Source: Candidatus Pacebacteria bacterium CG_4_10_14_0_8_um_filter_42_14
GTDB lineage: Bacteria > Patescibacteriota > Microgenomatia > UBA1400 > PJMF01
DNA length: 33,644 bases
Reading direction: 5' to 3'
Assembly (NCBI GenBank): GCA_002784625.1
Contig: PFLP01000002.1
Coordinates: 1-33,644, forward strand
Under the pieces are notes generated by a model that ran no database searches, was not told the origin of the DNA, and saw nothing but the letters and a program-made list of their open reading frames with translations. Of this stretch, positions 1-33,268 are shown in pieces. Position 1 is the first letter of the stretch, and the number at the start of each line of letters is the position of its first letter. Position numbers and translations under genes: made by a program.

Positions 1-65
1 TTTAAGCTGAGGCAACGATACGACGTTCGAGTACTATTATTGGTGAGGCAATACGGACCTATAAC

Positions 66-116: not shown

Positions 117-539
117 TCAGCCTCCTGCGTTAATCTGCTTCAAATTACTAAACAAGTCAGTGTAGCCACTAAAACCTAAGAAGTTAACTACGATCAAGAA
201 CACCGCCCAAGCAGCAGCAAGAATAATAAGCCCAACTACAGCGGCTGTAATCTTATTTCTGGCTTCTTCAGTCTTGCCAGAGTCACCACCAGAGGTAACC
301 CATTGAATACCACCCCAGATCATGTAGATGAGAATCATTAGGGCAGCAATTAGCATGACAAAGCTTAGAATAGAGCTAATTAGGGTTCCAATATTTGCTG
401 CATAACCTTTCTGGTCTGTCATTACTACATCGCCACCCAATGTTGATAGCTCGCCCTCTGCAAAAGCAGTACCAGCAACAAAGAGTGAAGTGCTAACTAA
501 TGAAGCCTTGGCGGCTAGAGATGTGAGGGTATTTTTCAT
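117..539 (-). CDS. T4SS pilin-like protein, probable major subunit (copy 2)
   Basis: This is a 140-aa secreted pilin-domain protein. Residues 1-27 form a signal peptide ending in an AFA cleavage site. A short mature N-terminus follows, then a hydrophobic helix at about 50-76, a cytoplasmic loop with the motif WVTSGGDSGKTEEARNK (80-96), and a second helix at about 97-122. The architecture matches VirB2/TrbC-like pilins and the CPR family known as T4SS pilin. An AGGA Shine-Dalgarno lies about 9 nt before the ATG, unlike most genes here. The gene follows its near-identical neighbour (570-1025) by 30 nt and ends before a strong terminator. The loop and both helices are almost identical to those of the neighbour, so this is a recent duplication. 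Assembly into a filament is inferred from the family. Confidence 0.88.
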   Translation of the reverse strand: MKNTLTSLAAKASLVSTSLFVAGTAFAEGELSTLGGDVVMTDQKGYAANIGTLISSILSFVMLIAALMILIYMIWGGIQWVTSGGDSGKTEEARNKITAAVVGLIILAAAWAVFLIVVNFLGFSGYTDLFSNLKQINAGG

Positions 540-569
540 ACGATATTTTCCTTTCGAGTTAATTTTTAT

Positions 570-1025
570 TTACTCCATACCTCCTGGTAAACCAGGAATA
601 GGAGCACTTGTTCCTGCATTAATCTGCTTCAGATTACTGAACAAGTCTGTATATTTACTGAAGCCTAAGAAATTAATTACAATCAAGAACACAGCCCATG
701 CAGCCGCGAGAATAATAAGTCCAACTACAGCCGCAGTAATTTTATTTCTGGCTTCTTCAGTCTTACCAGAATCTCCACCAGAGGTAACCCACTGAATACC
801 ACCCCAGATCATGTAGATGAGAATCATTAGGGCAGCAATGAGCATGACAAAGGTGAGAACAGAGCTGATGAGTCCACCAATGTTTTCAGCAAAACCCTTG
901 CCTGTTTGTACTGTGCCACCAAGCTTTGATAACTCAGCAGTTCCTGCAAAGGCGGTGCCAGCGATAAATAACGATGTACTTATCAAGGATGTTTTGGCAA
1001 CCATATTTGTGAGGGTATTTTTCAT
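570..1025 (-). CDS. T4SS pilin-like protein, probable major subunit (copy 1)
   Basis: This is a 151-aa protein if started at the ATG at 1025, which aligns with the start of copy 2 (MKNTLT). An upstream in-frame ATG at 1061 would add 12 residues, but it lies upstream of the -10 box. The features are a signal peptide ending AFA, two hydrophobic helices, and the WVTSGGDSGKTEEARNK loop identical to copy 2. The C-terminus is longer and Pro/Gly-rich (APIPGLPGG). The gene has its own extended -10 promoter 10 nt before the start codon, so the pair can be expressed separately from the six upstream pilin genes. It is likely a structural subunit. The family assignment is strong; the role as major subunit is inference from duplication and separate control. 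Confidence 0.88.
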   Translation of the reverse strand: MKNTLTNMVAKTSLISTSLFIAGTAFAGTAELSKLGGTVQTGKGFAENIGGLISSVLTFVMLIAALMILIYMIWGGIQWVTSGGDSGKTEEARNKITAAVVGLIILAAAWAVFLIVINFLGFSKYTDLFSNLKQINAGTSAPIPGLPGGME

Positions 1026-1035
1026 ATTGAAAATT

Positions 1036-1044
1036 ATTGTAGCA
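1036..1044 (-). promoter_or_regulatory. Extended -10 promoter of the pilin pair
   Basis: On the minus strand this reads TGCTACAAT, a TGn-extended -10 element, ending 10 nt before the ATG at 1025. No good TTGACA-like -35 is seen at 17 nt spacing. The predicted start site gives a leader of only a few nucleotides. Confidence 0.6.
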
Positions 1045-1065
1045 TATTTAGCCCAAAGCAAGCCA

Positions 1066-1431
1066 TCATCTAAAATTAAAAGTTAAGACCTCAATTCCTA
1101 AAAATACTTGTAAGAGTGAGAAGATGGCTACCACAGATGCCAAAACAATAATGCCAATCACCGACTGAGTGATTCTGCCACGGGAAGATTCTAGCTTTCC
1201 TGTGTCTCCACCAGAGGTAACCCACTCCATTGCACCCCAAATGAGATTGATGAGGACCATAAGGGCGGCGATGGTCATGGCGATAGTCAGAACTCGACTA
1301 ACCATAACGCCGAGACCAACTTGGCTACTATTTATGTCTGCAATGGAATTTCTGCCTGGAAGTTTTTGCAAAGTTGCTTCTCCAAAGAGGTTTAAATTTG
1401 CTTGTGCTAGCTGGGTAAAATTATTAATCAT
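1066..1431 (-). CDS. T4SS pilin-like protein
   Basis: This is a 121-aa pilin-domain protein with two hydrophobic helices at about 41-65 and 90-112, around the loop EWVTSGGDTGKLESSRGRI. It has no classical cleavable signal peptide: the N-terminus (MINNFTQLAQANLNLF) is short and amphipathic. It overlaps the upstream gene by 8 nt and is the last gene of the six-gene coupled operon. Its loop keeps the SGGD-x-x-K-x-x-x-x-R signature. It is probably a minor pilin or membrane platform subunit. The exact role cannot be read from sequence. Confidence 0.83.
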   Translation of the reverse strand: MINNFTQLAQANLNLFGEATLQKLPGRNSIADINSSQVGLGVMVSRVLTIAMTIAALMVLINLIWGAMEWVTSGGDTGKLESSRGRITQSVIGIIVLASVVAIFSLLQVFLGIEVLTFNFR

Positions 1432-1867
1432 AATCGTATTCTGGTGGAGGTTGGTCTGCTGATGGTCTATAAAGTTCCGTCGCAGATGGAAACGTCAGGT
1501 TTAAAATCGTAAAGTTGGTCCCAAAAAATAACTGGCTGACGTATGCGATGATTGTAAAAGAACTGACAAGAATGAACAAGCCAATGGCTGACTGTGTTAA
1601 GCGATTCCGGGCACTTTCAATTTTGCCACTATCACCACCGGCGGTTATCCACTCAATGCCACCTTGAAGAAAGAGGATAATTACAGCTAGGCCTCCAATA
1701 GTTATTGCGGAGCGCCAGAGAACGATAAAATAGTAAGTGAAGGTGACACCGCTGGCCGCCTTTGCTGAATCATCACCAAGAATACCAATGGTTTTGTTTT
1801 GAATTTCTGCAAATACAGTTGTAATTGAGAGAAAAAAAGGCACTAGGAAAGAGAGAATTTTTTTCAT
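1424..1867 (-). CDS. T4SS pilin-like protein with acidic tail
   Basis: This is a 147-aa protein with a signal peptide (residues 1-20, ending VFA), a helix at about 49-72, the loop EWITAGGDSGKIESARNRL, and a second helix at about 92-114. The C-terminus is an unusual Pro/acidic tail (PPPEYDYD) absent from the paralogues. It overlaps the upstream gene by 4 nt and the downstream gene by 8 nt, so translation is likely coupled. The AGGD signature and basic loop match the T4SS pilin family. The tail could be a contact point for a partner, which is inference. Confidence 0.83.
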   Translation of the reverse strand: MKKILSFLVPFFLSITTVFAEIQNKTIGILGDDSAKAASGVTFTYYFIVLWRSAITIGGLAVIILFLQGGIEWITAGGDSGKIESARNRLTQSAIGLFILVSSFTIIAYVSQLFFGTNFTILNLTFPSATELYRPSADQPPPEYDYD

Positions 1868-2238
1868 GATGTTGGAACCAGCTCTATTAACATTTTCGCA
1901 GGATTTAGGATATCAATACCAACTATTGTACCAATAATACCAACAATCCCATACGCTGCAACAATAATGACTAAGCCAATCGCTGACTGCATCATGCGAT
2001 TTCGAGCTGTCTCAATTTTGCCACTCTCTCCGCCAGCAGTAATCCAGCTGAAAGCGCCAAGGATAAAGTTGACTATGAAGAAAATTGATCCAAGAACTGT
2101 GAGAATACCGAGCAGATTCGAGAAAAACTTTTCAAGGATTGTGAAGGCATTTGTAGAAGTAGCTGCGTCCTTTGTGTAGACGTTATCAACTGGTGCTTTG
2201 AAACTACCAAATTGCGCTAATTGTGAAGGAAGTTGCAT
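1864..2238 (-). CDS. T4SS pilin-like protein
   Basis: This is a 124-aa pilin-domain protein. After a polar N-terminus with no obvious cleavable signal come helix 1 (about 41-65), the loop SWITAGGESGKIETARNRM, and helix 2 (about 88-108). Glu replaces Asp in the AGGD/SGGD motif. The gene starts 26 nt after the stop of the preceding gene and overlaps the next by 4 nt. It is an operon member and a likely minor subunit of the same machine. Confidence 0.82.
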   Translation of the reverse strand: MQLPSQLAQFGSFKAPVDNVYTKDAATSTNAFTILEKFFSNLLGILTVLGSIFFIVNFILGAFSWITAGGESGKIETARNRMMQSAIGLVIIVAAYGIVGIIGTIVGIDILNPAKMLIELVPTS

Positions 2239-2264
2239 AAGTTTCTAATAGTATACATTGCCTG

Positions 2265-2882
2265 CTACGGCGCGACCACTGCGCTATCAAGGGCGGTGAT
2301 GAGTTGTGGATTCAAAATATATGCAGCGTTGCCAAAGAAAATCAGGCCAATGATGCCAGCGATGGCAAAGGCGCCGACAATGAGACTGAGGCCGACGGCA
2401 GACATAGTAAGTTTTTCTTTTACAGCGGTGAGGCCGTCATCGCTATCTGGTTTGGTAATATAAATGAAGGCTGCGGAAATAACATTAAACATCACCCAAA
2501 GACCGGCGATGATGGAGCCAAATTGGAGAACGCGGGAGAGGAAGAGGATGAGGCCGATACCCATTCCTGAGTTATCCGAACTAGCAATTAAAGCAAAAAG
2601 GTTGAGCTTTAATATTGAGTTGGGTGGCTTTACAGCACCAAGAACAGCCACACCCTCACCTCCACCGCACGATACTCGCCTTGCAGAAATCATCCCATAG
2701 GGGGGAGGATAGCTTGTAAACTCACACAATTTCCCATTAACGCATTGACCATCACTTTCACAGCCGTCGATTTTTATTGGACCAGTTTCTGCAGATGAGT
2801 TAGTTGGTAGTAATAAAGCTAAACAACTTAATAAAGTAACGAAGAGCAAGATTGAGAATTTTCCACCTATTTTCTTTTTCAT
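2265..2882 (-). CDS. Secreted Cys-containing T4SS pilin-domain protein
   Basis: This 205-aa protein is the largest of the tandem array. Residues 1-31 look like a signal peptide (SSA). An extracytoplasmic segment with four cysteines follows (CESDGQC, KLCEF, RVSCGGG), suggesting two disulfides. Then come a hydrophobic helix (about 111-140), a diverged loop (YITKPDSDDGLTAVKEKL) and a final helix pair. The loop has lost the canonical SGGD but keeps the acidic/basic pattern and length. It overlaps the upstream gene by 4 nt. The extra Cys-rich region makes it intermediate between the small pilins and the two large pilin-domain proteins at 7644-10573. Confidence 0.8.
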   Translation of the reverse strand: MKKKIGGKFSILLFVTLLSCLALLLPTNSSAETGPIKIDGCESDGQCVNGKLCEFTSYPPPYGMISARRVSCGGGEGVAVLGAVKPPNSILKLNLFALIASSDNSGMGIGLILFLSRVLQFGSIIAGLWVMFNVISAAFIYITKPDSDDGLTAVKEKLTMSAVGLSLIVGAFAIAGIIGLIFFGNAAYILNPQLITALDSAVVAP

Positions 2883-3256
2883 AAACTGCCTATCGTCGGA
2901 TTCAAAATAAAAGTAGCACTGCCAAAAAAGATTAAACCAAAGATGGCAGTGATTGTGTATGCAGTCACCAATAGAATTAGGCCAATGACGCTGTTTGTCA
3001 TCATCTTGCTGACTTTTTCATTAGCGCTGGCGTCACCGTTTCCAGAGATATAAATATAAGCAGCTAAGAAAATGTTGATCACCACCCAAAGGGAGCCGAC
3101 CACCATCAACAACTTTATGATCGTAGAAACAAAAACTAAAATGCCTATATCTCCACCTGTGGCATTGAAATTATCTACTGGAGCGGGCTTATCTATAGTG
3201 CCAATTCCTAAAGGATCGGAGGTAGTTGCTGCCGCTAACAAATTAAAAATACCCAT
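2879..3256 (-). CDS. T4SS pilin-like protein, diverged loop
   Basis: This 125-aa protein has a short N-terminus rich in small residues, a hydrophobic helix at about 45-72, the loop YISGNGDASANEKVSKMM, and a C-terminal helix at about 88-112. The ending FGSATFILNP closely resembles that of the adjacent 205-aa protein (FGNAAYILNP), so the two are sister paralogues. The gene starts 2 nt after its upstream neighbour stops and overlaps the downstream one by 4 nt. It is an operon member and likely minor subunit. Confidence 0.82.
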   Translation of the reverse strand: MGIFNLLAAATTSDPLGIGTIDKPAPVDNFNATGGDIGILVFVSTIIKLLMVVGSLWVVINIFLAAYIYISGNGDASANEKVSKMMTNSVIGLILLVTAYTITAIFGLIFFGSATFILNPTIGSL

Positions 3257-3258
3257 AT

Positions 3259-3618
3259 TTATAACCCCATGTTTACTCCAGTGAGGAGCTGAACAATTTG
3301 TACGATCCAGTATGCACTAAAAAGCAGGACGAAGCCAATGACTGCGGTAGTCGCCATTTTTTGTGCTTGTTCCATACCTTTTTTGCCCTGAGAAACAAAT
3401 AAAAATCCTGCATAAAATGCATAAAGGAAAAGCAAAACCCCTGCGAGCACAAACAAATTTCTGACGATTAGATTAACAAGAAAAGCTGGTTCACTATAGA
3501 CGCTTTTAATGGTTGTATTGTTGGAAAGTGTTAAGCATTCTCCCAGATCAATACTGGCTTCTTCACCCGCATCGCAGGCAGCGCGAACTTGTTTGATCAA
3601 TGAGAACGAAGAGATCAT
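3259..3618 (-). CDS. T4SS pilin-like protein, first gene of pilin operon
   Basis: This is a 119-aa protein with two N-terminal-region cysteines (CDAGEEASIDLGEC) and helices at about 50-74 and 90-112 around the loop FVSQGKKGMEQAQKMAT. The C-terminal helix (LLFSAYWIVQIVQLLTGV) resembles that of the large protein at 7644-9275 (FVSYWIMQIVEVIFGI), so they may be partners or relatives. It is the first gene of the six-gene operon. A TATAAT box ends 7 nt before the ATG, so the mRNA is probably leaderless. Confidence 0.82.
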   Translation of the reverse strand: MISSFSLIKQVRAACDAGEEASIDLGECLTLSNNTTIKSVYSEPAFLVNLIVRNLFVLAGVLLFLYAFYAGFLFVSQGKKGMEQAQKMATTAVIGFVLLFSAYWIVQIVQLLTGVNMGL

Positions 3619-3623
3619 AAGTG

Positions 3624-3632
3624 GTATTATAC
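3624..3632. promoter_or_regulatory. Near-symmetric bidirectional -10 between pilin and sigma-factor operons
   Basis: GTATTATAC is palindromic apart from its central base. On the minus strand TATAAT (3631-3626) lies 7 nt before the pilin ATG at 3618. On the plus strand TATTAT (3625-3630), preceded by TGG, lies 11 nt before the sigma-factor ATG at 3642. The same few base pairs therefore appear to serve both directions. No convincing -35 hexamer is seen on either side. Confidence 0.6.
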
Positions 3633-3641
3633 GACAATTAC

Positions 3642-4175
3642 ATGACAGACGAGAAGCGACTCATCAGCGAACTTAAACAAGGCAAGCCAAAGGCGGTCCG
3701 CAAGTGGTTCAAAACATATCATGATCGATTGTTGCGATTGGTTTTGCAACGCATATCTCAAGAAAAAGACGCTGAAGAACTAGTCCAGGAAACATTTCTT
3801 AATGCTCTAAAACAAATTCCTCTGTTTAGGGGAGACTCAAGTCTTTGGACTTGGATGGTATCAATAGCTCGTCATGAAATAGCAGATTTCTATCGAAAAA
3901 AATATGCCAAGCGGGCACTTCGCACCGTACCGCTTGGTGATTTGGTCATTGCTACAAAAATTTATGATTCATCTGAAGTTTCAGAGATTGTGATGCGTTG
4001 TTTGGGCGATATGAAAGCTGAATCTGTTGAACTTCTGAAGCTCAAATATATAGATCGCAAAAAAATCTTTGATATAGCCGAAGATCTTGATCGGAGTGTC
4101 AAATCAATTGAGTCAGAACTCTTTAGAGCTCGGAATGAATTTCGCGCTCTTTATCTAGCTTATGAAAACGAATAA
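3642..4175 (+). CDS. ECF-type RNA polymerase sigma factor
   Basis: This is a 177-aa protein started at ATG 3642; an upstream in-frame GTG at 3621 lies inside the -10 box and is rejected. Region 2 lies at about residues 5-75, with the ECF-typical stretch ELVQETFLNAL followed by FRGDSSLWTWMVSIARHEIADFYRKK (core-binding and -10 recognition). Region 4 lies at about 110-170, with a helix-turn-helix containing IAEDLDRSVKSIESELFRAR. The size and two-domain layout fit sigma-70 group 4. It redirects RNA polymerase to specific promoters. It is divergent from the pilin operon and overlaps a small membrane-protein gene by 14 nt, a common place for an anti-sigma factor. The target genes are unknown. Confidence 0.88.
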   Translation: MTDEKRLISELKQGKPKAVRKWFKTYHDRLLRLVLQRISQEKDAEELVQETFLNALKQIPLFRGDSSLWTWMVSIARHEIADFYRKKYAKRALRTVPLGDLVIATKIYDSSEVSEIVMRCLGDMKAESVELLKLKYIDRKKIFDIAEDLDRSVKSIESELFRARNEFRALYLAYENE

Positions 4176-4368
4176 TTTTCTTAAAAAACTTGAAGAAGAA
4201 GCTGCTTTGCAGGCCAAGCTATCGACCACGAGAATATTCCCGAGAGAACTCGACGCTCTTACCTCATTTATTGGTAGAAATTCATGGCAATTTGTTTTGG
4301 TTTTATCAGGATTAACTGCTTTGTTAATAGAGCTTCTAGGTTTTCTAGTAAGAACTGGGCCCAAGTGA
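4162..4368 (+). CDS. Small single-pass membrane protein, candidate anti-sigma factor
   Basis: This is a 68-aa protein with a charged amphipathic N-terminal half (NNFLKKLEEEAALQAKL) and one transmembrane helix at about 42-63. It overlaps the sigma-factor gene by 14 nt and the next gene by 4 nt (GTGA), so it is translated from the same message. A cytoplasmic helix plus one membrane span next to an ECF sigma gene fits a minimal membrane-tethered anti-sigma factor. No anti-sigma family motif such as a zinc-binding HxxxCxxC is present, so this role is only contextual. Confidence 0.65.
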   Translation: MKTNNFLKKLEEEAALQAKLSTTRIFPRELDALTSFIGRNSWQFVLVLSGLTALLIELLGFLVRTGPK

Positions 4369-4700
4369 AGAAAGATCAGCTTTTCTCATTTCTCTATGCG
4401 CTCGGAAAAATTACCCTGGGTTTACTTCTACATCCTTATCAAACCATGCAGTCGCTGATTCGTGAAAGAGCTTTTATCTGGATGGCGTTACTGCCAAGTG
4501 CGGTTTTTGTGGGAGCAAAAATAATTTGGTTTTTCGTTCTAGTTCCTATGGTCCGCTTCGCTTTTTCCTGTTCAGTTTCAAGTTTCTTTGGTTGCGAACT
4601 AATTCCATTTTTCGCCAACTGGTTAGTTTTATTTTGTATTTATTGGCAAGTGATGCTTTTGTATTTGCTTTTGAGGTTTAGTTTGGCTTTTAGAGACTAG
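4365..4700 (+). CDS. Small polytopic membrane protein in the sigma-factor operon
   Basis: The GTG at 4365 overlaps the TGA of the upstream gene (GTGA) and gives 111 aa. An in-frame ATG at 4284 inside the upstream gene would add 27 implausible residues. The protein has a soluble N-terminus with the segment HPYQTMQSLIRERAF and about three hydrophobic helices (near 34-55, 60-75, 80-105). No family is recognised; the layout is loosely like Yip1/YesK-type small membrane proteins. The position suggests a role with the sigma factor and its putative membrane regulator. Confidence 0.6.
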   Translation: MKKDQLFSFLYALGKITLGLLLHPYQTMQSLIRERAFIWMALLPSAVFVGAKIIWFFVLVPMVRFAFSCSVSSFFGCELIPFFANWLVLFCIYWQVMLLYLLLRFSLAFRD

Positions 4701-6927: not shown

Positions 6928-7647
6928 ATGTCCAAAAAAAACTCTAATCCTATTCCAGCTCACGTCGCCGTTATTTGTGATGGCAATAGGCGTTGGGCGA
7001 AAAGCCACGGCTGGGATGTGATTAAGGGTCATCAGTATGCTCTAGATGTTATTTTTGAGCCTCTGGCTGACAAAGCTGCAGAGATGGGCATAGGCTTTCT
7101 TACTTTTTGGGTTTTTAGTACCGAGAACTGGAATCGAGACAAGAGGGAAGTCGAAGCCCTGATGAATATGTTTCGCAAGGTTTTTGACGAACAAGTGGCG
7201 CGTTTTAACGAAAAAAATATTCGCGTCAATCATATCGGCGATCTTGATGGTCTGCCGGGAGATATCCAACAAAAAGTTCGCGATGGAGTAGAAAAAACTA
7301 AAGATAATACTGGCCTTACTCTAACCTTCGCCATGAATTATGGCGGTCATGATGAACTCACAAGAGCTATTAAGAAGATTGCTGCTGAGGCTATGGCGCG
7401 CAAGGTGCTGCCAGAAAATATCGACGAGAAACTTATTTCCGATCATCTCGATACGGCTGGAATGCCAGAGCCTGACCTGATTATTCGCACCAGTGGAGAA
7501 CAAAGACTTTCAGGCTTCATGTCTTGGCAGAATAATTATGCCGAGTTTAGTTTCCCGAAATTTCATTTTCCAGAGCTGACCCCAGAAAAATTTGAGGGTG
7601 TAATAAAAGAATATGGTGACCGCAAGCGTCGTTTTGGAGCTGGTTAA
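6928..7647 (+). CDS. uppS: Cis-prenyltransferase (undecaprenyl diphosphate synthase family)
   Basis: This is a 239-aa enzyme that condenses IPP units onto an allylic diphosphate to make the polyprenyl carrier for peptidoglycan and glycan synthesis. Conserved features are the catalytic P-loop VAVICDGNRRWAK (residues about 13-25), FSTENWNR, MNYGGHDEL, the IRTSGEQRLSGFMSWQ substrate-binding segment and the C-terminal RKRRFG. The catalytic loop reads DGNRRWA, whereas most bacterial UppS have DGNGRWA; this variant is seen in archaeal, eukaryotic and actinobacterial relatives. Chain length cannot be deduced safely. It is the last gene of the isoprenoid cluster, and its end overlaps the convergent pilin-domain gene by 4 nt. 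Confidence 0.93.
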   Translation: MSKKNSNPIPAHVAVICDGNRRWAKSHGWDVIKGHQYALDVIFEPLADKAAEMGIGFLTFWVFSTENWNRDKREVEALMNMFRKVFDEQVARFNEKNIRVNHIGDLDGLPGDIQQKVRDGVEKTKDNTGLTLTFAMNYGGHDELTRAIKKIAAEAMARKVLPENIDEKLISDHLDTAGMPEPDLIIRTSGEQRLSGFMSWQNNYAEFSFPKFHFPELTPEKFEGVIKEYGDRKRRFGAG

Positions 7648-9275
7648 AGAATGGTAATTCCGAAAATCACCTCGACAATTTGCATTATCCAATAAGAGAC
7701 GAAGAGCAGTAAGAAACCGACTATCGCGGCAGTGGCGCGCTGTTTCCCGGCGTCAAGAGATTTTTCACTGGATGCTCCTGCCAGCATTTCAAACCCTGCC
7801 CAACTAAGCATGGCAAAGAGAATGAGTCCAGCCAAGGGGAAGGCAAAGAGGAGGATGCGCGAAATAAAGCCTCCGGGACTTTTTAGTGTTTTAGCATATT
7901 TGCTAGCTGATCCATCGGCGTTTCCCATGAGAAGAGGATTAAGTTCATTAAATTTTTCTGAGGTAAGGTTGTCGACTATGCTGTCGCTTGGGGGTTCTTC
8001 TGGATTTTCTTCTGTTTCACCACCACCACCTCCGCCAGGAAGGGGGTCTGGATCTGATTTAGGACAAAGATCCATTGAATCAGGAGAGCAACATACAGTT
8101 GGATCAACACCACAAGATTGGGCTCCTGAAATTTTTTGATTTGCACTATTTTGACAAGTAGCCATACTTGCGTTCCAAGTTCCGCAACCAAAAGCTTGGC
8201 TAGTTGGACAGGTGCCTCCAGAAGCTTGCAAATAACCTACGGAGCAACACTGACGTTGACTTGCATTAATTTCTGTTCCTGGACAATCTTGCGCTTCCCC
8301 AAATTCATACTCTGTTCCATCTACAGCAATACAAAGATTTGACCCGACATATGTCACTCCACAGTAGTGATCTGGGTTATTTGTATCAACATCTCTTGGT
8401 TTTACCGCATATTGTCCAACTTCACATAATGACCTTGTTGTATCTGTAGAAAACAGCGAAACATTATATGTTAAATCCTGCAGACTTTCGTTGCTGAGCA
8501 AGCCACTGTTTGTGAGTAAAAATGTCAATTGGTATCTAGCAGCATCTTCTGCGACCGTCAATTTGTTTGTTTCAAATTCTTTCCCTTCGCTTGACTTAAT
8601 TTTTAAATAATAGCCAGGATGGGATTCGCTGGTTCTTAGATTCAGGACAATTCTTTTGCTGGATGTTCCTTCTATTACATCATCTAGACCCTCAGCGCTT
8701 GTTATTGCAACACCACCAGCGCAAGAAATCGATCCAGGGGGAAGGGGGTCATTTGCCACTTCGTTTAATGCATCGTAGTAATCTTTTTCAGCTTGGCTGG
8801 AAAAAACATAGTAGCTACCAATCCCACAAGATGGGTCAATTCCAAATGAAAAATTTAGGCCTAGGGCTCTGTCCGCATTAAAAGTTATTCCATATCCAAG
8901 CTTGTTTTGCGCATCGAGAGAATTCAGTCCTTTTTCGGGATCAATATCAAAGGTCAGATCATAAATTTGCTCGCCACTTGGCGTGCGTCCTCCATCAACT
9001 CTCGCAACTTCTCTTGATTCAAAATTATTGTTATTTTGTGGCTGAATTGTTAAGTAGTAGCCTCTAAAATTTTCTTTTGTAAGAATTCTTAGTTTAATTT
9101 GTTTGCTAGACGCCCCGTTTATTTCATTTTTGATTTCTTCGATGTTTTGGACTGTCATTTTATTTCCACAGCTGAGCGGTGTCGTACTAGCGTCTGCAAA
9201 TACTAAATCGGGTTTAATTAGAAGCACGAACGCAAACAGAAAAAATGTAAGTAAAGTTTTGTTCAGTATTTTCAT
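7644..9275 (-). CDS. Large secreted Cys-rich protein with C-terminal T4SS pilin domain
   Basis: This is a 543-aa protein. Residues 1-27 are a signal peptide (VFA). Two related domains follow: repeat A about 36-157 and repeat B about 185-291. Both start SC, contain (S)SK-x-I then GYYL, and end with C followed by GxYxV. A segment with 12 cysteines (305-404) and a flexible Gly/Pro/acid linker (about 405-432) come next. The C-terminus (about 465-543) is a pilin-like pair of helices around a loop (GASSEKSLDAGKQRAT). It overlaps the upstream gene by 4 nt, so the two large proteins are co-translated. Anchoring by the pilin domain with a displayed disulfide-stabilised head suggests a pilus-tip or adhesin role, which is inference. 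Confidence 0.85.
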   Translation of the reverse strand: MKILNKTLLTFFLFAFVLLIKPDLVFADASTTPLSCGNKMTVQNIEEIKNEINGASSKQIKLRILTKENFRGYYLTIQPQNNNNFESREVARVDGGRTPSGEQIYDLTFDIDPEKGLNSLDAQNKLGYGITFNADRALGLNFSFGIDPSCGIGSYYVFSSQAEKDYYDALNEVANDPLPPGSISCAGGVAITSAEGLDDVIEGTSSKRIVLNLRTSESHPGYYLKIKSSEGKEFETNKLTVAEDAARYQLTFLLTNSGLLSNESLQDLTYNVSLFSTDTTRSLCEVGQYAVKPRDVDTNNPDHYCGVTYVGSNLCIAVDGTEYEFGEAQDCPGTEINASQRQCCSVGYLQASGGTCPTSQAFGCGTWNASMATCQNSANQKISGAQSCGVDPTVCCSPDSMDLCPKSDPDPLPGGGGGGETEENPEEPPSDSIVDNLTSEKFNELNPLLMGNADGSASKYAKTLKSPGGFISRILLFAFPLAGLILFAMLSWAGFEMLAGASSEKSLDAGKQRATAAIVGFLLLFVSYWIMQIVEVIFGITIL

Positions 9276-10573
9276 GACGTTCCAAAGCCCGGAATACGAA
9301 GAATATCAAAGCCGATAAACTGAAGAATGGTTACAGAGAAGATGATAATTAGGAGTCCGACGATGGCGGATGTAATCATTTCTTTGGCTTGTTCTGCGCG
9401 CTTTGGATCACCCTGGGATGTGGTGATCAAGAATCCTCCTGCGAGTGTCATGATTAGTGAAACCCCGCCACCAATACCGAGTCCAAGTTTGACAAGGCTT
9501 TGAACGATCGAGGTCGGTTCACGTTTGATGCAGCCGATAGCTGTCCAGACTCCAGCACTTTCATTAGGGTTTTCTTTTGTGATGCCTGCGCAGCTTTCGC
9601 ACTCTGCTCGTGCTTTTGGTGATGAAACTTGACTACAGAGTTTGAAAGATTCTATTTTTCCATTAAAATCACCCTGGTTGCTAGGAGGTGTTTCACTACA
9701 CAAAGAAGGGTCACAAGCCTTGCCTCTTACTACAAAGGTTGATTGGCAGTTGCCAGCAAATTCGTTCCCCCCTATCTTTGGAGGTCCAATGCTGTAGGTT
9801 CCCGATCCAAGGCTTGGACTGAGTATTCCACCAATAATTGGATCTTCTAAATGACCATCAATGATTTTTACAGGGCGATCTGTGCACCACCAAAAGCCGC
9901 TAAGTCCGCATTTTAAAGTAACGTTTCTCTTGTTTTCAATAATTTGTCCATTCGACTTTAGATCGCCATTGGCAATAATAATAGGTGATTTATCATCAAT
10001 ACACCCATTATTAGTGGTGTAACACTTATTTTCTTCTGGAATTCCATCACCATCTTTGTCAAAGGTTTTGACTTGATAAATGTCAAATGCTGAACACGTA
10101 AGATTTTCATTGCGAATATTAATTTTTCCAACCCTACAGACGCCATCAGAAAGTGAGCCTCCGGAGCCATCATAAAGCCAGATTTGTTTGGTGTCTATCC
10201 AGCCGATCCAGTCATCATAAGATAAGTCTTTGGTGGATAGCGAAAAGACCATTGTCTGGTCAATGCTTGTTTTTTGAACAAGCTCGCTTGCAGACTCCGC
10301 AGCGATATCTGCTCTGCCGTTGTCCCAGACGACGAGTCGGTAACTTCCAATTGGAATATAAGGAGAATAAATAGAAATTTTATAGTCTTCAGCCCCCTGA
10401 TCCAAAGATAAATTTCCTTCATCTATTGTTATATTCACCCCTGTTATCTGTGCCTCGTACTGATCTCCAGAGCAATCTTCTGCCAAAACCATTGAACTCG
10501 CCGAAAAAAACAACCCCACTGCCAGGAAAACAATGAAAATTTTCTTAAAGCGTGATATTGAAGGTAAATTCAT
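9272..10573 (-). CDS. Large secreted protein with C-terminal T4SS pilin domain
   Basis: This is a 433-aa protein with a signal peptide (1-31, VLA), a beta-rich N-terminal domain (about 34-160), a Ca-binding-like loop FDKDGDGIPEEN (171-182), and a Cys-containing middle region with many cysteines up to residue 348. A C-terminal pilin domain (about 355-425) holds two helices around TTSQGDPKRAEQAKEM. The loop motif is the same as in the small pilins at the start of the window. It is the first gene of a two-gene operon. A TACAAT box lies 26 nt upstream of the ATG, and no Shine-Dalgarno is evident. It is likely a surface-exposed minor subunit or adhesin; the exact ligand is unknown. Confidence 0.85.
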   Translation of the reverse strand: MNLPSISRFKKIFIVFLAVGLFFSASSMVLAEDCSGDQYEAQITGVNITIDEGNLSLDQGAEDYKISIYSPYIPIGSYRLVVWDNGRADIAAESASELVQKTSIDQTMVFSLSTKDLSYDDWIGWIDTKQIWLYDGSGGSLSDGVCRVGKINIRNENLTCSAFDIYQVKTFDKDGDGIPEENKCYTTNNGCIDDKSPIIIANGDLKSNGQIIENKRNVTLKCGLSGFWWCTDRPVKIIDGHLEDPIIGGILSPSLGSGTYSIGPPKIGGNEFAGNCQSTFVVRGKACDPSLCSETPPSNQGDFNGKIESFKLCSQVSSPKARAECESCAGITKENPNESAGVWTAIGCIKREPTSIVQSLVKLGLGIGGGVSLIMTLAGGFLITTSQGDPKRAEQAKEMITSAIVGLLIIIFSVTILQFIGFDILRIPGFGTS

Positions 10574-10599: not shown

Positions 10600-10605
10600 A
10601 TTGTA
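10600..10605 (-). promoter_or_regulatory. -10 box of the large pilin-domain operon
   Basis: On the minus strand this reads TACAAT, 26 nt before the ATG at 10573. It faces away from the SpoIID-gene promoter. The predicted leader is about 20 nt, longer than at most other promoters here. No clear -35 is seen. Confidence 0.45.
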
Positions 10606-10624
10606 CCCCATCTCGAGCCACCAG

Positions 10625-10633
10625 TGGTACACT
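10625..10633 (+). promoter_or_regulatory. Extended -10 promoter of the coiled-coil/SpoIID gene
   Basis: TGGTACACT is a TGn-extended -10 box ending 9 nt before the ATG at 10643, implying a leader of two or three nucleotides or none. It supports choosing 10643 as the start, since an upstream in-frame TTG at 10601 lies before the promoter. Confidence 0.5.
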
Positions 10634-10642
10634 GTTTACATC

Positions 10643-12328
10643 ATGTGGCGACGTTTTTTTGTCAGCATATTTCTTGAGGCAGTGCTGGCAACAGTCTTAA
10701 GTGGGGGGATTTTTCAGATTCTGCCTGTCTGGGCTGACGAAGTCGCTGATCTCCAGAAGCAAATTGACGAACTTGAGAACCTGAAAAACATGTCAGAGTC
10801 GGCGACAAAGCCTTTAGTAGAAGAACTTAAGGGTTTAGAAAATCGCATAAATACCGCTCGCGCTGGTATCATCAGAGCTAAAACAGAGGTTGCCGCTCTG
10901 GCTAAAAACATCGATGGTCGCGAGCTTGACTTGGCTCTCCAGTATCAGATCCTTTCAGAGCGCGTTCACGTCCAGTACAAAAGAAGCCGCCAGCTAAATC
11001 CGCTCCTTATCTTCTTTGCCGGTGGCGATGCTAGCGCTGTCGCTAAGGATCTTGCCTACCAGTCGGCTGCCAAGGTCAGAGACGATAAGCTCATTACCGA
11101 TATCAGTTCTGACATCTCAGGTCTGGAGGCCGACACCGTCGCTCTTGAAAATAAACAAAAACAACTTGCTGCTCTAGAAATTCAGCTTGATGAACAAGCG
11201 CAGTTTTTTCGCGGAGAAATCGGTAAGGCGAAAGATTATCAAAAAGATCTAACAGGCAAAATTGCTTCTCTTTCAGCCAAGCAGCAAGAAATCTTAGCGG
11301 CCAGATCAGGAAGCTTCACTGCCAGTATTGGCGATAGCGAGCTAGCTGATGATTTTAATGCTTCGATTAAAGGTTTTCGCGATTCAGCCCCGAGCGGCTA
11401 CTTCGCAGTTTTTTCCTTCGGTGCTTATACCCACAGAAAAGGCATGAGTCAGTATGGAGCCAGAGGTAGAGCCCAGAATGGCCAGAACTATAAACAAATT
11501 CTGCAGGCTTATTATGGCAAAGAACCCGTTGGCAAAAATACCGATGGCAACATCAGGGTTAGCGGCTACGGAGAAATGAATTTTGAGGAGCAGTATCTCT
11601 GGGGTATAGCTGAGATGCCGTCGAGCTGGCATGCAGAAGCCTTAAAGGCCCAGGCAGTGGCCGCCAGAACTTATGCTTACCGCTATATCGAACAGGGAAA
11701 AGAAATTTGCACAACAGAGGCGTGCCAAGTTTTTTCAAAATCAAAATCTGATAATGCTCCAGAAGCCTGGAAACAAGCAGTGAGGGATACAAGAGGCCAA
11801 GTGCTTGAGGATGTAGTCACTTTTTATGCTTCGACGCATGGTGCCTTCACTACCACTGCTGGCTGGGACACGACAGATGGAAATGGCGGCGGCAACTTCA
11901 TCGACAAGTCATTTGAGAAATTAGGCGGTTCTCCTTGGCTATACAAAGCTTGGTACACCCAAGGTTATAGCTCTAGTAGTGATAAGTGTGGCAGAAGCAA
12001 TCCTTGGCTCTCTCCCGAAGAGATGGCAGACATTATCAATGCAGCCAGATTCAGAGACGACCGAGTTACGCCAGTTAGCACTTCTTGCTGGGGAGGCAAT
12101 CCTTACTCACATGAGGAATTGCGACAAAAAGCCAACGGACCTTCGAGTGTGTCATCGGTCTCAGTTAGTCAGGGCAATGGCACCACCAACGAAGTTATTT
12201 TCCAAACCAATATTGGTGAGATTCGCCTCAGCGGCTCTGACTTTAAAACTGCCTTTAATGTCCGTGCTCCAGGACGTTTATCAATTCCCCAAAAAAGTTT
12301 TTCATTCTTTAATATCGAGCATAAATAG
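10643..12328 (+). CDS. Secreted coiled-coil protein with SpoIID/LytB domain
   Basis: This is a 561-aa protein. Residues 1-30 are a signal peptide. Residues about 33-230 form long coiled coils in two blocks separated by a short globular piece (NPLLIFFAGGDASAV), resembling the N-terminal domain of PcsB/CwlO-type wall hydrolases. A SpoIID/LytB domain follows, with GMSQYGARG at about 267-275, then LWGIAEMPSSWHAEALKAQAVAARTYA. SpoIID proteins are lytic transglycosylases on denuded glycan in sporulators; here the protein probably remodels peptidoglycan outside the membrane. Glu in the AEMP segment corresponds to the family's catalytic acid region. The stop overlaps the recF GTG by 1 nt. Confidence 0.85.
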   Translation: MWRRFFVSIFLEAVLATVLSGGIFQILPVWADEVADLQKQIDELENLKNMSESATKPLVEELKGLENRINTARAGIIRAKTEVAALAKNIDGRELDLALQYQILSERVHVQYKRSRQLNPLLIFFAGGDASAVAKDLAYQSAAKVRDDKLITDISSDISGLEADTVALENKQKQLAALEIQLDEQAQFFRGEIGKAKDYQKDLTGKIASLSAKQQEILAARSGSFTASIGDSELADDFNASIKGFRDSAPSGYFAVFSFGAYTHRKGMSQYGARGRAQNGQNYKQILQAYYGKEPVGKNTDGNIRVSGYGEMNFEEQYLWGIAEMPSSWHAEALKAQAVAARTYAYRYIEQGKEICTTEACQVFSKSKSDNAPEAWKQAVRDTRGQVLEDVVTFYASTHGAFTTTAGWDTTDGNGGGNFIDKSFEKLGGSPWLYKAWYTQGYSSSSDKCGRSNPWLSPEEMADIINAARFRDDRVTPVSTSCWGGNPYSHEELRQKANGPSSVSSVSVSQGNGTTNEVIFQTNIGEIRLSGSDFKTAFNVRAPGRLSIPQKSFSFFNIEHK

Positions 12329-15886: not shown

Positions 15887-16981
15887 ATGTACGAACCAAA
15901 ATTTACCATCTCTAATAATATCCTGACTTACATCTCGAAAATCGAGTCTGCGCGGGCGATGATCGATCATGCTCCTCTGGTACCGAGTTGGGAAGCTAAG
16001 TTTCGCGACGACGCCTTTTCTCGCACCGTTCACTACGGGACAAAAATTGAAGGAAACGATCTGACCGAAGAGCAAGCCCAGCAAGTAGTTCGTCTGGGAG
16101 ATTTTGTTGATTCAGAGGATGTGGCCAAAAAAACTGGCATCATCGCCAGAGACCGAGATATTCAGGAAGTAATTAATTATCGCAACGTCATCGACTGGAT
16201 CGACAAGCAACAATCGCCAAAATATGAGCAACTGATCACGGAAAAGACGCTGAAAACCTTGCACAGATTGACAATTTACAAACTCATCGACGAAAAATAC
16301 ACGGGATCTTATCGTGACAAGCAAGTCATAGTTGAGAGCGCCAGAGGAGGTGGAATTGTTTTTCGCCCACCAGTCTCGATGGAAATTCCTTTCCTGATCG
16401 AAGATTTTTTCAAATGGGCTCAGAATACCAAGACCCAGAGTGCCATTCATCCAATCTTAAGAGCCGCTATCACTCACTACCAGCTTGTCTACATTCATCC
16501 TTTTATAGAGGGGAATGGTCGTACGGCGCGCGCCTTAGCCACACTAGTCCTGACTTCACTTGGTTATAACTTCAAGCGCTTTTTCTCGCTGGAGCAGTAC
16601 TTTGACAGCGATGTTGATGCTTATTACAATGCTTTGCTCTCAGTCCAACAAAACCCAGAAATTGATCTAACTTATTGGCTTGAGTATTTTTGTTATGGTG
16701 TGGCTCTGGAGATCGACAAAATTCAAAGTCAAGTCATGAGTCTCTCGCGCGATCTGAAACTTAAAAAACAACTCGGTCGTCAGGTAGCTTTATCAGAGCG
16801 CCAGATTATTTTACTCGAACTCTTCCAGCGACAAGAAAGAGTTACTTCCGATGACGTCCAGAAAGTTTTGCCCCAAATCTCGGTCGACACAATCTTGCGT
16901 GACATGAAAGACCTGATTAGCAAGGGGATTATCAAAAAAGAAGGTGTGACCAAGGGTGTCCACTACACTTTGGACGAGTAG
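15887..16981 (+). CDS. Fic-family AMP/NMP-transferase with C-terminal winged helix
   Basis: This is a 364-aa protein. The Fic catalytic motif HPFIEGNGRTAR is complete at 204-215, with His204 as the catalytic base. An N-terminal inhibitory-helix-like motif TKIEGN (52-57) carries Glu55, so activity is probably auto-inhibited. The C-terminal 80 residues look like a winged helix (SERQIILLELFQRQERVTSDDVQ), suggesting DNA binding or self-regulation. The enzyme would transfer AMP or another nucleotide to a hydroxyl on a target protein. The gene ends 3 nt before the DNA-ligase start, so they share a transcript. A GATAAT preceded by TGC (15858-15866) is a possible promoter. Confidence 0.9.
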   Translation: MYEPKFTISNNILTYISKIESARAMIDHAPLVPSWEAKFRDDAFSRTVHYGTKIEGNDLTEEQAQQVVRLGDFVDSEDVAKKTGIIARDRDIQEVINYRNVIDWIDKQQSPKYEQLITEKTLKTLHRLTIYKLIDEKYTGSYRDKQVIVESARGGGIVFRPPVSMEIPFLIEDFFKWAQNTKTQSAIHPILRAAITHYQLVYIHPFIEGNGRTARALATLVLTSLGYNFKRFFSLEQYFDSDVDAYYNALLSVQQNPEIDLTYWLEYFCYGVALEIDKIQSQVMSLSRDLKLKKQLGRQVALSERQIILLELFQRQERVTSDDVQKVLPQISVDTILRDMKDLISKGIIKKEGVTKGVHYTLDE

Positions 16982-16984
16982 CGC

Positions 16985-18739
16985 ATGTTGTTTTCTGAAT
17001 TCGCTTTTTTTCTGTCTTGCCTAGAAGCACTTTCGAGTCGGTTGGCTATGACGGAAGTCCTTGCCGAGTTGTACACGAAACTTAGTCAAGAAGAACTTAA
17101 AGAAGCAAGCTACCTTCTCCAGGGTTCGCTAGTCCCTCCATATCAATCTCTAGAATTTCAAATTTCCAATAAGCTTGTTATTCGCTCTTTAGCACAACTT
17201 CAGGCAAAGCAGGAAAGTACTGCGACCAATTTATTTGGAGAGTCAGATGCGACAGGCTCAGAGTTGCAAGTCAGCGAGCTTTTCATAAAGACTGGCGATA
17301 TTGGCACTGTGGCAGAGAAAGTTTCAGAAAAAGTTAAAATTGATAAAAAACTGACTCTGCTTGAGGTTTTCAGTCGGCTGCGGCTAATTGCTGAAGCCTC
17401 CGGTGATGGTTCACAAGCCCAGAAAGTCAATCAGTTGGTGGCTTTGTTTTCAGATCTAGAGCCAATCTCAAATCGCTACATTGCCCGGATTGTCATTGGC
17501 AAAATGAGATTGGGTTTTAGCACCATGACTTTGCTAGACGCTTTGTCGTGGGCAAAAAATAAATCAAAAGAGGAAAGTAAAGTTCTTGAAAATGCTTACC
17601 AAAAAAAAGCCGATGTTGGCGCCCTGGCCCAAGTTTACTTAGTTGCCAAAACAAAAGAAGAGCGAGATCGGGCCTTGGCAAATTACTCTGTCAGTTTTGC
17701 GGTACCAGTCATCCCGCAGCTTTGTCAGCGTCTTCACTCTGCGGAAGAAATTATCGAAAAATTAGGCGAGGTTTTTGCCGAACCAAAATACGATGGCCTG
17801 CGCATCCAGCTCCACATCTCCACTGACACTAATGAAGTCCATGCTTATACGCGAAGTCTAGAAGACGCTACTCACATGTTTCCAGAATTAGCTGTGCTTC
17901 CGAAAGCTATCTCAGCACACACCGTCATTCTTGATGCTGAGGCGATTGGCTATGATCCAGACACAGGTGTGCTTTTGCCATTTCAGGACACAATCACCCG
18001 CAAAAGAAAACACGACGTGGCTTCGAAAGCAGACTCGGTGCCGATCAGATTTTATGTTTATGACGTCATGCTCATTGATGGTGAGTCACTTATTGATAAA
18101 CCTCTTGAGGAGCGCAAAAAACGCTTGCTTTCACTTTTTTCGAACTCGAAAACCCTGACTCATTCTCCAGTCTTAAGAACCAAGAACGCGGCTGAACTAC
18201 AGCGCTTCCATGAAGAGCAATTACGTCTTGGCTTAGAGGGCGCGGTCGTTAAGCAAGTAATGTCTCCTTATCAAAGCGGCCGAAAAGGTTGGTATTGGGT
18301 GAAGATAAAAGAGGCGGCGGGTACTCGTGGCAAATTAGCAGATACTTTGGACTGCCTTGTTTTGGGCTATTATCCAGGCCGAGGCAAAAGAACTCAATTT
18401 GGTGTTGGCGCGTTTCTAGTCGGTGTTCTAGATGGAGACAAAGTTAGAACTATTGCGAAAATTGGCACAGGACTTACTGATGATCAGTTTAGAGAGTTAA
18501 AAAAACGCTGTGATGAACTAAAAACTTCCGTGAAGCCAGAGGCCTACGACGTGCCGAAAGATTTGTTTCCAGGAGTTTGGTGTTTGCCCGGGCTTGTGAC
18601 CGAGATCGCTGCCGACGAGCTGACCCGCTCTCCCATGCACACGGCTGGACTGGCCTTGCGCTTCCCACGCCTGGTTCGGTTTCGCGATGATAAAAAGTGG
18701 AGGGATGCGACGAGCGTTTCGGAATTAGGGGATTTTTAA
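16985..18739 (+). CDS. lig: ATP-dependent DNA ligase, archaeal type
   Basis: This 584-aa protein has the three-domain layout of archaeal/eukaryotic replicative ligases. An N-terminal DNA-binding domain (about 1-220) starts with the family-typical FSEFAFFLSCLEALSSRLAMTEVLAEL. The adenylation domain has the nucleotidyl-lysine motif EPKYDGLR (Lys268), FYVYDVML, EGAVVKQ and WVKIK. A C-terminal OB domain ends with TRSPMHTAGLALRFPRLVRFRDDK. It seals nicks using ATP. Bacteria normally rely on NAD-dependent LigA, so this is probably an acquired second ligase; whether LigA also exists cannot be seen. Its 3' end overlaps the convergent hydrolase gene by 15 nt. Confidence 0.93.
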   Translation: MLFSEFAFFLSCLEALSSRLAMTEVLAELYTKLSQEELKEASYLLQGSLVPPYQSLEFQISNKLVIRSLAQLQAKQESTATNLFGESDATGSELQVSELFIKTGDIGTVAEKVSEKVKIDKKLTLLEVFSRLRLIAEASGDGSQAQKVNQLVALFSDLEPISNRYIARIVIGKMRLGFSTMTLLDALSWAKNKSKEESKVLENAYQKKADVGALAQVYLVAKTKEERDRALANYSVSFAVPVIPQLCQRLHSAEEIIEKLGEVFAEPKYDGLRIQLHISTDTNEVHAYTRSLEDATHMFPELAVLPKAISAHTVILDAEAIGYDPDTGVLLPFQDTITRKRKHDVASKADSVPIRFYVYDVMLIDGESLIDKPLEERKKRLLSLFSNSKTLTHSPVLRTKNAAELQRFHEEQLRLGLEGAVVKQVMSPYQSGRKGWYWVKIKEAAGTRGKLADTLDCLVLGYYPGRGKRTQFGVGAFLVGVLDGDKVRTIAKIGTGLTDDQFRELKKRCDELKTSVKPEAYDVPKDLFPGVWCLPGLVTEIAADELTRSPMHTAGLALRFPRLVRFRDDKKWRDATSVSELGDF

Positions 18740-26839: not shown

Positions 26840-27487
26840 ATGTCACCAGCGCCCAACTCGCAGTCAGCAATTAGTGATTCGGCTCGTTCAAGAAGCTCGG
26901 CCATTTTGCGCCAGTTTCTTGGCAAACATGCTGGCCAAACTCAAGCAGCGGTTCCAACTCCAGCCCCAAGCTCAACTTCGTCACAACTTGACGTTCTTGA
27001 TAAAGTTTTAGCCGAGGTCGAAGCCAGCTCTAAGCCTGGAGAACCGAGTTCTTTAGCTCAGGCAGTCCCACAAGTGATCGACCAGATGACAGACACTCTT
27101 AATACTTCCGTAGGCTCAAGTGCGGGTAGTATCGAACGTCGTCAGCCAACCATGGATTTAGCTCCAGAACTAGCTGGCCATGCCCAGGTGGTTGATCAAG
27201 AACCAAGTCCAGAAATTTCTCCAGAAGTGGAGGGTTATTTAGAGGCAGTGGAAAATCATGTCAGTGAATTACCAGAGGAAATTGTCATTGCCGATGGCAC
27301 GATTCCCTCGGCTTCTCAGAACAAGACTGCCAAAAAAGTAGTGGTTTTGCCCATTTCCGAAGAAGAGGAAAAAGAAGGCAAGCACAAAAGTCCCAAGTGG
27401 AGTATTAAGTGGTTGATCACTTGGAGCCAAAAAATCATTAAAATGTTTAGAGGCGAAGTTGTTTATCGGCCAGCGGAGAACGAGTAA
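26840..27487 (+). CDS. Disordered acidic protein paired with the T4SS ATPase
   Basis: This 215-aa protein is mostly low-complexity, rich in Ser, Pro, Ala, Gln and Glu. A basic N-terminal stretch (SARSRSSAILRQFLGKHAG) and a C-terminal amphipathic segment (SPKWSIKWLITWSQKIIKMF) are its ordered parts; the latter could lie on the membrane. It overlaps the ATPase gene by 1 nt, so they are co-translated. It may act as an adaptor or recruitment factor for the ATPase, which is inference. No homology is recognised. Confidence 0.72.
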   Translation: MSPAPNSQSAISDSARSRSSAILRQFLGKHAGQTQAAVPTPAPSSTSSQLDVLDKVLAEVEASSKPGEPSSLAQAVPQVIDQMTDTLNTSVGSSAGSIERRQPTMDLAPELAGHAQVVDQEPSPEISPEVEGYLEAVENHVSELPEEIVIADGTIPSASQNKTAKKVVVLPISEEEEKEGKHKSPKWSIKWLITWSQKIIKMFRGEVVYRPAENE

Positions 27488-33192: not shown

Positions 33193-33266
33193 GAGCCGGT
33201 AGCTCAGTTGGTTAGAGCGGTAAGCTTATACCTTACTGGTCGGGGGTTCGAGTCCCTCCCGGCTCA
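33193..33266 (+). tRNA. tRNA-Ile (anticodon UAU)
   Basis: A complete cloverleaf is visible. The acceptor stem GAGCCGG/CCGGCTC is perfect, and the D-stem GCTC/GAGC and anticodon stem GTAAG/CTTAC are perfect. The T-arm has GGGGG/CCCTC with one G-T wobble around TTCGAGT. The anticodon loop CTTATAC places TAT at 33227-33229, reading AUA. The discriminator is A. CCA is not encoded (ACA follows), so a CCA-adding enzyme is needed. Most bacteria read AUA with a CAU anticodon modified by TilS; an unmodified UAU anticodon is uncommon. Confidence 0.93.
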
Positions 33267-33268
33267 CA

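Follow-up and report, generated by a model that had tools for sequence, protein, structure and literature searches.

Does a bacterium that carries eight different pilin genes in a row use them as interchangeable variants or as separate parts of one structure? The question is raised by the window analysed here, the whole of one contig (C55, 33,644 bases; PFLP01000002.1) in the draft genome (0.98 Mb, 90% complete) of Candidatus Pacebacteria bacterium CG_4_10_14_0_8_um_filter_42_14, which holds near one end an array of genes for proteins of the pilin type of the type IV secretion system (T4SS), a machine that ultrasmall parasitic bacteria turn on their host cells. Quinonero-Coronel et al. (2025; PMC12102498) described 441 arrays with 2-11 pilin genes each from 383 assemblies of Patescibacteria, with abundance in Microgenomatia, and suggested antigenic variation or host versatility. 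An earlier note on this DNA had called the organisation poorly described, which is not supported, since both the arrays of 2-11 pilins and their essentiality in one cultured species are published (PMC12102498; PMC10633639; PMC12857230). We consider it reasonably probable that the eight genes make up most of an ordered set of VirB2-like subunits of a chromosomal, VirB4-driven T4SS, in which they would serve as fixed parts with class F as the main pilin.

Eight minus-strand open reading frames (ORFs) occupy positions 117-3618, as the earlier note had listed them. They are given here in order of transcription (A, B, B2, C, D, E, F, F2), with E-values against the T4SS_pilin profile PF18895 and with the class letters used below:

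3259..3618, minus strand: pilin class A (119 aa), array gene 1; PF18895 5.5e-4, below the cut-off; also placed by class order
2879..3256, minus strand: pilin class B (125 aa); PF18895 1.1e-4, below the cut-off; also placed by class order
2265..2882, minus strand: pilin class B2 (205 aa) with a signal peptide, a small Cys-rich ectodomain, and a helix hairpin; PF18895 E 0.18; clusters with class B; helices in the AlphaFold model
1864..2238, minus strand: pilin class C (124 aa); PF18895 1.7e-8
1424..1867, minus strand: pilin class D (147 aa) with a signal peptide; PF18895 3.6e-7
1066..1431, minus strand: pilin class E (121 aa); PF18895 1.5e-5, just under the cut-off
570..1025, minus strand: pilin class F (151 aa) with a signal peptide, proposed copy 1 of the major pilin; PF18895 1e-10; ORF open to a TTG at 1061
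117..539, minus strand: pilin class F2 (140 aa), 85% identical to F, proposed copy 2 of the major pilin; PF18895 7e-11

Intergenic distances in this order are +2, -4, +26, -4, -8, +40, and +30 nt; thus, the first six genes are tightly coupled, in agreement with the range of -8 to +26 nt proposed before. Pairwise identity inside the array is 21-46%, except for F and F2, and an intrinsic terminator with a 10-bp stem and a T tail lies 3' of F2 at 92-69 (minus strand).

Four of the eight genes (117, 570, 1424, and 1864) exceed the Pfam gathering score for PF18895, genes 1066, 2879, and 3259 reach 20-25 bits compared to the gathering score of 26.6, and gene 2265 (B2) reaches 12.3 bits. We assign the four genes under the cut-off to the pilins by their orthologue classes and order. 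Hydropathy indicated two hydrophobic helices in all eight proteins, and the AlphaFold models of F2 (helices 50-82 and 87-120) and B2 (helices 109-143 and 148-183) contain the same hairpin. The loop motif [ST/A]GG[DE]xxKxxxxR is strict in C, D, E, F, and F2, whereas A, B, and B2 carry diverged forms. VirB2-like pilins consist of two hydrophobic helices with a short charged loop between them, and this plan was found by hydropathy and in both models, so that the earlier description of two-helix T4SS pilins with this loop or a diverged form of it is borne out. Among other profiles, TrbC/VirB2 (PF04956) is matched by class C alone (E 0.015, under the cut-off), and F2 and F score 39.3 and 39.7 bits against NF045849, just short of its cut-off of 40. 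The F2 model aligned with the Aeropyrum conjugation pilin 8dfu with a Z score of 7.8 across 76 of 84 residues, in a hairpin background that extends up to 8.1, so that this fold comparison is compatible with pilin identity and not diagnostic of it; structural searching was consequently rejected as a proof of identity for a hairpin. Assignment to unrelated two-helix families was rejected because the best matches to other Pfam families are weak and inconsistent, as was a phage origin, for which there is no PHROG match.

Whether the eight genes are variants or parts is judged here chiefly by comparison with relatives, whose arrays were fetched and mapped and whose pilin domains were labelled by array rank or synteny. 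In a tree of 88 domains, array position required 13 changes (minimum 6) compared to 71 for genome of origin, and all eight label groups taken together required 15 changes compared to a mean of 61 after shuffling. Since the alignment has only 82 columns and leaves many forks open, we claim clustering alone from this tree. As an independent test, six genomes of one family served to train profiles for classes A-G, which were then applied to 80 named Microgenomatia loci, leaving pilins more than 90% identical to the training set out of the order test. The order A-B-C-D-E-F-G was kept in 983 of 1017 pairs from 63 arrays (509 after shuffling, with a maximum of 585) and was perfect in 50 of the 60 arrays having four or more genes. 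Because these loci are mutually related, the order is a conserved trait and not 63 independent events. A separate consensus, including N-terminal signatures, is conserved in each class, and most full arrays in the same taxonomic order start with a homologue of 3259-3618 and end with class G. The named relatives closest to the last array genes are on contigs labelled Ca. Pacebacteria, Woesebacteria, Gottesmanbacteria, and Microgenomates, which places the organism in the Microgenomatia (Patescibacteria/CPR). PF18895 itself is present in 28 of 28 relatives and in 141 of 145 genomes of the phylum, and ordered arrays occur across Microgenomatia, so that conservation in related genomes, one of the checks named in the earlier note, is supported. 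Extension of classes A-G beyond Microgenomatia was rejected, since class calls in other classes of the phylum were mixed and unordered; the ordered set is therefore a class-level trait. Judged from sequence comparison, the eight genes are orthologue classes A, B, B2, C, D, E, F, and F2 of an ordered set rather than free variants, and the classes other than the F copies had separated before the sampled families and orders diverged.

Copy number sets class F apart. Duplicates are absent from A, D, and G and occur in 2 of 56 arrays for C, 7 of 56 for B, and 6 of 35 for E, whereas F has at least two copies in 32 of 67 arrays (one to four copies) and is the sole class that is often multi-copy. Class B2, a duplicate of B, bears a Cys-rich ectodomain that is seen again in relatives; the largest arrays among the loci compared have up to 12 pilin genes. 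A ribosome site is commonest before class F (46%). We propose F as the major pilin because it is often multiplied, carries a signal peptide and the canonical loop, and is most often preceded by a ribosome site.

The rest of the secretion system lies on a second contig of the source genome (C53), onto which the array very probably continues. In the same orientation, C53 starts with F3 (class F) and G, followed by a 1,461-aa secreted giant protein with a weak SLT lytic-transglycosylase match and a 610-aa polytopic protein that is VirB6-like by topology and position. Further along are an M23 peptidase, PrgI (PF12666, above the cut-off), a TrsD-like VirB4 N-part (TrsD match 1.4e-3, below the cut-off), VirB4 (NF045971, 8e-114, above the cut-off), and DnaA, with VirB4 adjoining PrgI and DnaA. 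In one relative (G012, locus L065), a single contig carries the fusion genes described below, the sigma gene, A-G, the giant gene, and the virB6-like gene, and in another (L192) the array is contiguous through the virB6-like gene to PrgI and VirB4. The linkage in these two relatives implies that the array is very probably part of a VirB4 T4SS near the replication origin, where Patescibacteria T4SSs have been placed (PMC12102498). The arms of an inverted repeat, CTGAGGCAACGAT, lie at the facing ends of C55 (window 7-19, plus strand) and C53 (L045 19176-19188, minus strand), and this repeat probably caused the contig break between F2 and F3. No relaxase was seen in the annotated stretches, in which no search aimed at relaxases was made; relaxases are absent from most Patescibacteria T4SS clusters (PMC12102498). 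Thus, the eight genes of the earlier note are real, and the natural unit is not these eight but the canonical A-G set running into the giant SLT protein and the VirB6-like protein.

Two further ATPase genes were observed. A short contig of the source genome carries a second VirB4-like (P-loop_TraG) fragment next to an M23 peptidase (L046 3942-4745, minus strand), possibly a second T4SS or a mobile element. In the window, 27487-29823 (plus strand) encodes a 778-aa HerA/VirD4-like ATPase with partial similarity to coupling proteins, clustered with LGT and unknown proteins and far from VirB4.

The full set reads A, B, (B2), C, D, E, F (one to four copies), and G, followed by the giant cell-wall-hydrolase-like protein and the VirB6-like channel. 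The gene set, its position-specific orthology, and its conserved order and neighbours were observed, and from them we infer the roles of the subunits. Each class would be a distinct, non-interchangeable subunit of a single assembly, with F as the putative major pilin and with A-E and G as mostly single-copy minor pilins surrounding the VirB6-like protein in the membrane, where they would initiate, anchor, or cap the structure. VirB4 would drive extraction of the subunits, giving a short pilus or an envelope-spanning platform that touches the host cell. The mixed-subunit assembly suggested in the earlier note fits, because the genes are position-specific orthologues. More tentatively, the T4SS pilus or platform may consist obligatorily of about seven non-interchangeable VirB2-like subunits, one in bulk and the others dedicated minor pilins, with a divergent extracytoplasmic function (ECF) sigma factor as its own switch, a version to which we give somewhat less than even weight. 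If true, the subunits would divide their labour as the minor pilins of type IV pili do, an arrangement that would have arisen independently in the VirB2 family.

Several points weigh against assembly from fixed VirB2-like parts. The join of C55 and C53 is drawn from relatives; the VirB6-like label reflects topology and position, with no family match; the similarity to 8dfu falls within the background of helical hairpins (Foldseek E 1.7); and a search of PDB sequences with the pilins gave no meaningful match. Arrays also exist outside Microgenomatia, but in the loci tested there the A-G classes are unrecognisable. Finally, the filament and its stoichiometry are proposed from genes.

The best surviving alternative, which we consider unlikely, is that there is no pilus and that hairpin subunits form a conductance platform, packed round the VirB6-like protein and VirB4 and resembling an inner-membrane complex. 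Such a platform is consistent with the general lack of pili in monoderm T4SSs (PMC12102498), with the resemblance of the seven classes to fixed parts, and with the frequent lack of a clear signal peptide in A, C, and E, as judged by a crude heuristic. By contrast, class F resembles a classical pilin in its signal peptide, canonical loop, and duplication, and the archaeal pilin CedA1 forms pili even though its N terminus is unprocessed (PMC9905601). The pilus in monoderm T4SSs is discussed in a review (PMC12857230).

That the genes are variant pilins, paralogues for the same slot diversifying for host change or escape from recognition, is improbable. This idea, put forward for Patescibacteria on the model of Bartonella and Anaplasma (PMC12102498), would account for the low identity inside arrays (21-46% here; published mean 25%), their variable size (2-11 genes published, up to 12 here; PMC12102498), and the duplication of F within lineages. 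Yet sequence tracks position and not genome across genera, families, and orders (13 versus 71 changes), order is kept, and each class has its own signature. Moreover, A-E orthologues are 42-65% identical to those of a same-genus genome, which overlaps the values for the neighbouring sigma (61%), ipk (42%), and uppS (69%) genes. On these sequence comparisons, the order result argues against the simple form of antigenic variation for A-E and G. Gene dosage or redundancy, in which recent tandem duplicates would have no divided roles, fits the 85% identity of F and F2 and is refuted for the other classes, which predate the divergence of the sampled families and orders, and we dismiss it as a general explanation with near certainty.

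The following features, which bear on transcription, lie at the 5' side of the array and between its genes:

3642..4175, plus strand: ECF-type sigma factor, divergent (177 aa from ATG 3642); family match and conserved upstream position
4162..4368, plus strand: 68-aa membrane protein with a single pass, encoded by a gene that overlaps the sigma gene; candidate anti-sigma factor, from position only
4365..4700, plus strand: 111-aa two-helix membrane protein, conserved beside the sigma gene
3626..3631, minus strand: TATAAT box, 7 nt before the A start; putative leaderless-type promoter
2250..2255, minus strand: TATACT box, 11 nt before the C start; putative internal promoter
1036..1041, minus strand: TACAAT box, 10 nt before the F start; putative internal promoter

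The sigma gene diverges from A at a distance of 23 bp, and a divergent sigma match was found upstream of 35 of 54 testable arrays. Pfam and PHROG searches of the 68-aa protein gave no match. In 65% of arrays, a TATAAT-like box (score at least 8) is located 4-14 nt ahead of the A start; the figure is 52% for G, compared to 5% for random ATGs. A standard -35/-10 scan gave no excess of promoters, and -10 boxes emerged only when positioned relative to start codons; an ECF-specific promoter motif was not established. Leaderless-type promoters thus appear to precede A and G; transcription would begin from promoters of this type and may be controlled in part by the ECF sigma factor encoded divergently from A.

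Two fusion genes with pilin hairpins lie further along the window:

7644..9275, minus strand: class Y, 543-aa secreted protein with a C-terminal pilin hairpin; PF18895 4e-4, below the cut-off
9272..10573, minus strand: class X, 433-aa secreted protein with a C-terminal pilin hairpin; PF18895 1.9e-8
10601..12328, plus strand: SpoIID-domain protein, divergent from the X-Y pair in relatives

The X-Y pair is conserved beside spoIID in relatives, and X and Y may be display subunits that carry large domains on the same hairpin anchor. These fusions, the terminator, the ECF sigma factor, and C53 with two more pilins and the T4SS core go beyond the earlier note. At 15887-18739 (plus strand), a gene for a Fic-domain protein is followed by one for an ATP-dependent DNA ligase, and this pair adjoins the array in most close relatives. 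A tRNA-Ile gene with anticodon TAT (UAU) is at 33193-33267 (plus strand). The tRNA that reads AUA is normally produced by the enzyme TilS; no TilS was found when the draft genome (90% complete) was searched, and therefore AUA may be read directly by tRNA-Ile(UAU).

The single Patescibacteria species examined so far cannot grow epibiotically without its T4SS. Should the pilin genes prove to be fixed parts and not variants, the question moves from antigenic variation to a mixed-subunit VirB2 assembly, and class-by-class testing becomes possible with the deletion method published for Southlakia epibionticum. Class order also provides a simple annotation rule for Microgenomatia arrays, which Pfam alone recovers partly.

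Among known systems, the series of predicted pilins in the S. epibionticum T4SS (SEML1_0006-0019), which is required for growth as an epibiont (Wang et al., 2023; PMC10633639) and comprises six pilins according to a review (PMC12857230), likewise lies within a Gram-positive-like T4SS cluster. This species belongs to another class (Saccharimonadia), and A-G were unrecognisable in the non-Microgenomatia loci compared, which did not include S. epibionticum. Archaeal Ced/Ted DNA-import pili resemble the present system as domesticated T4SSs with VirB4, VirB6, and a two-helix VirB2-like pilin, which is found with or without a cleaved signal peptide (PMC9905601), and 8dfu aligns with the class F model; they differ in that one pilin species per pilus is described, without an ordered array (PMC9905601). 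The pilin-like conjugal transfer protein Mbov_0395 of Mycoplasma integrative and conjugative elements (NF045849) is similar in the near-cut-off scores of F and F2, whereas here there are many classes and they are chromosomal. The closest counterparts are the VirB2/T4SS_pilin arrays of PMC12102498, whose members are treated there as variable pilins; the available part of that paper makes no mention of a fixed class order, a divergent ECF sigma factor, or F-only amplification, and no mention of the order or sigma factor was found in the open-access published papers searched. To the arrays already published, the present analysis adds ordered, probably non-interchangeable orthologue classes, an ECF sigma neighbour, and amplification of class F only.

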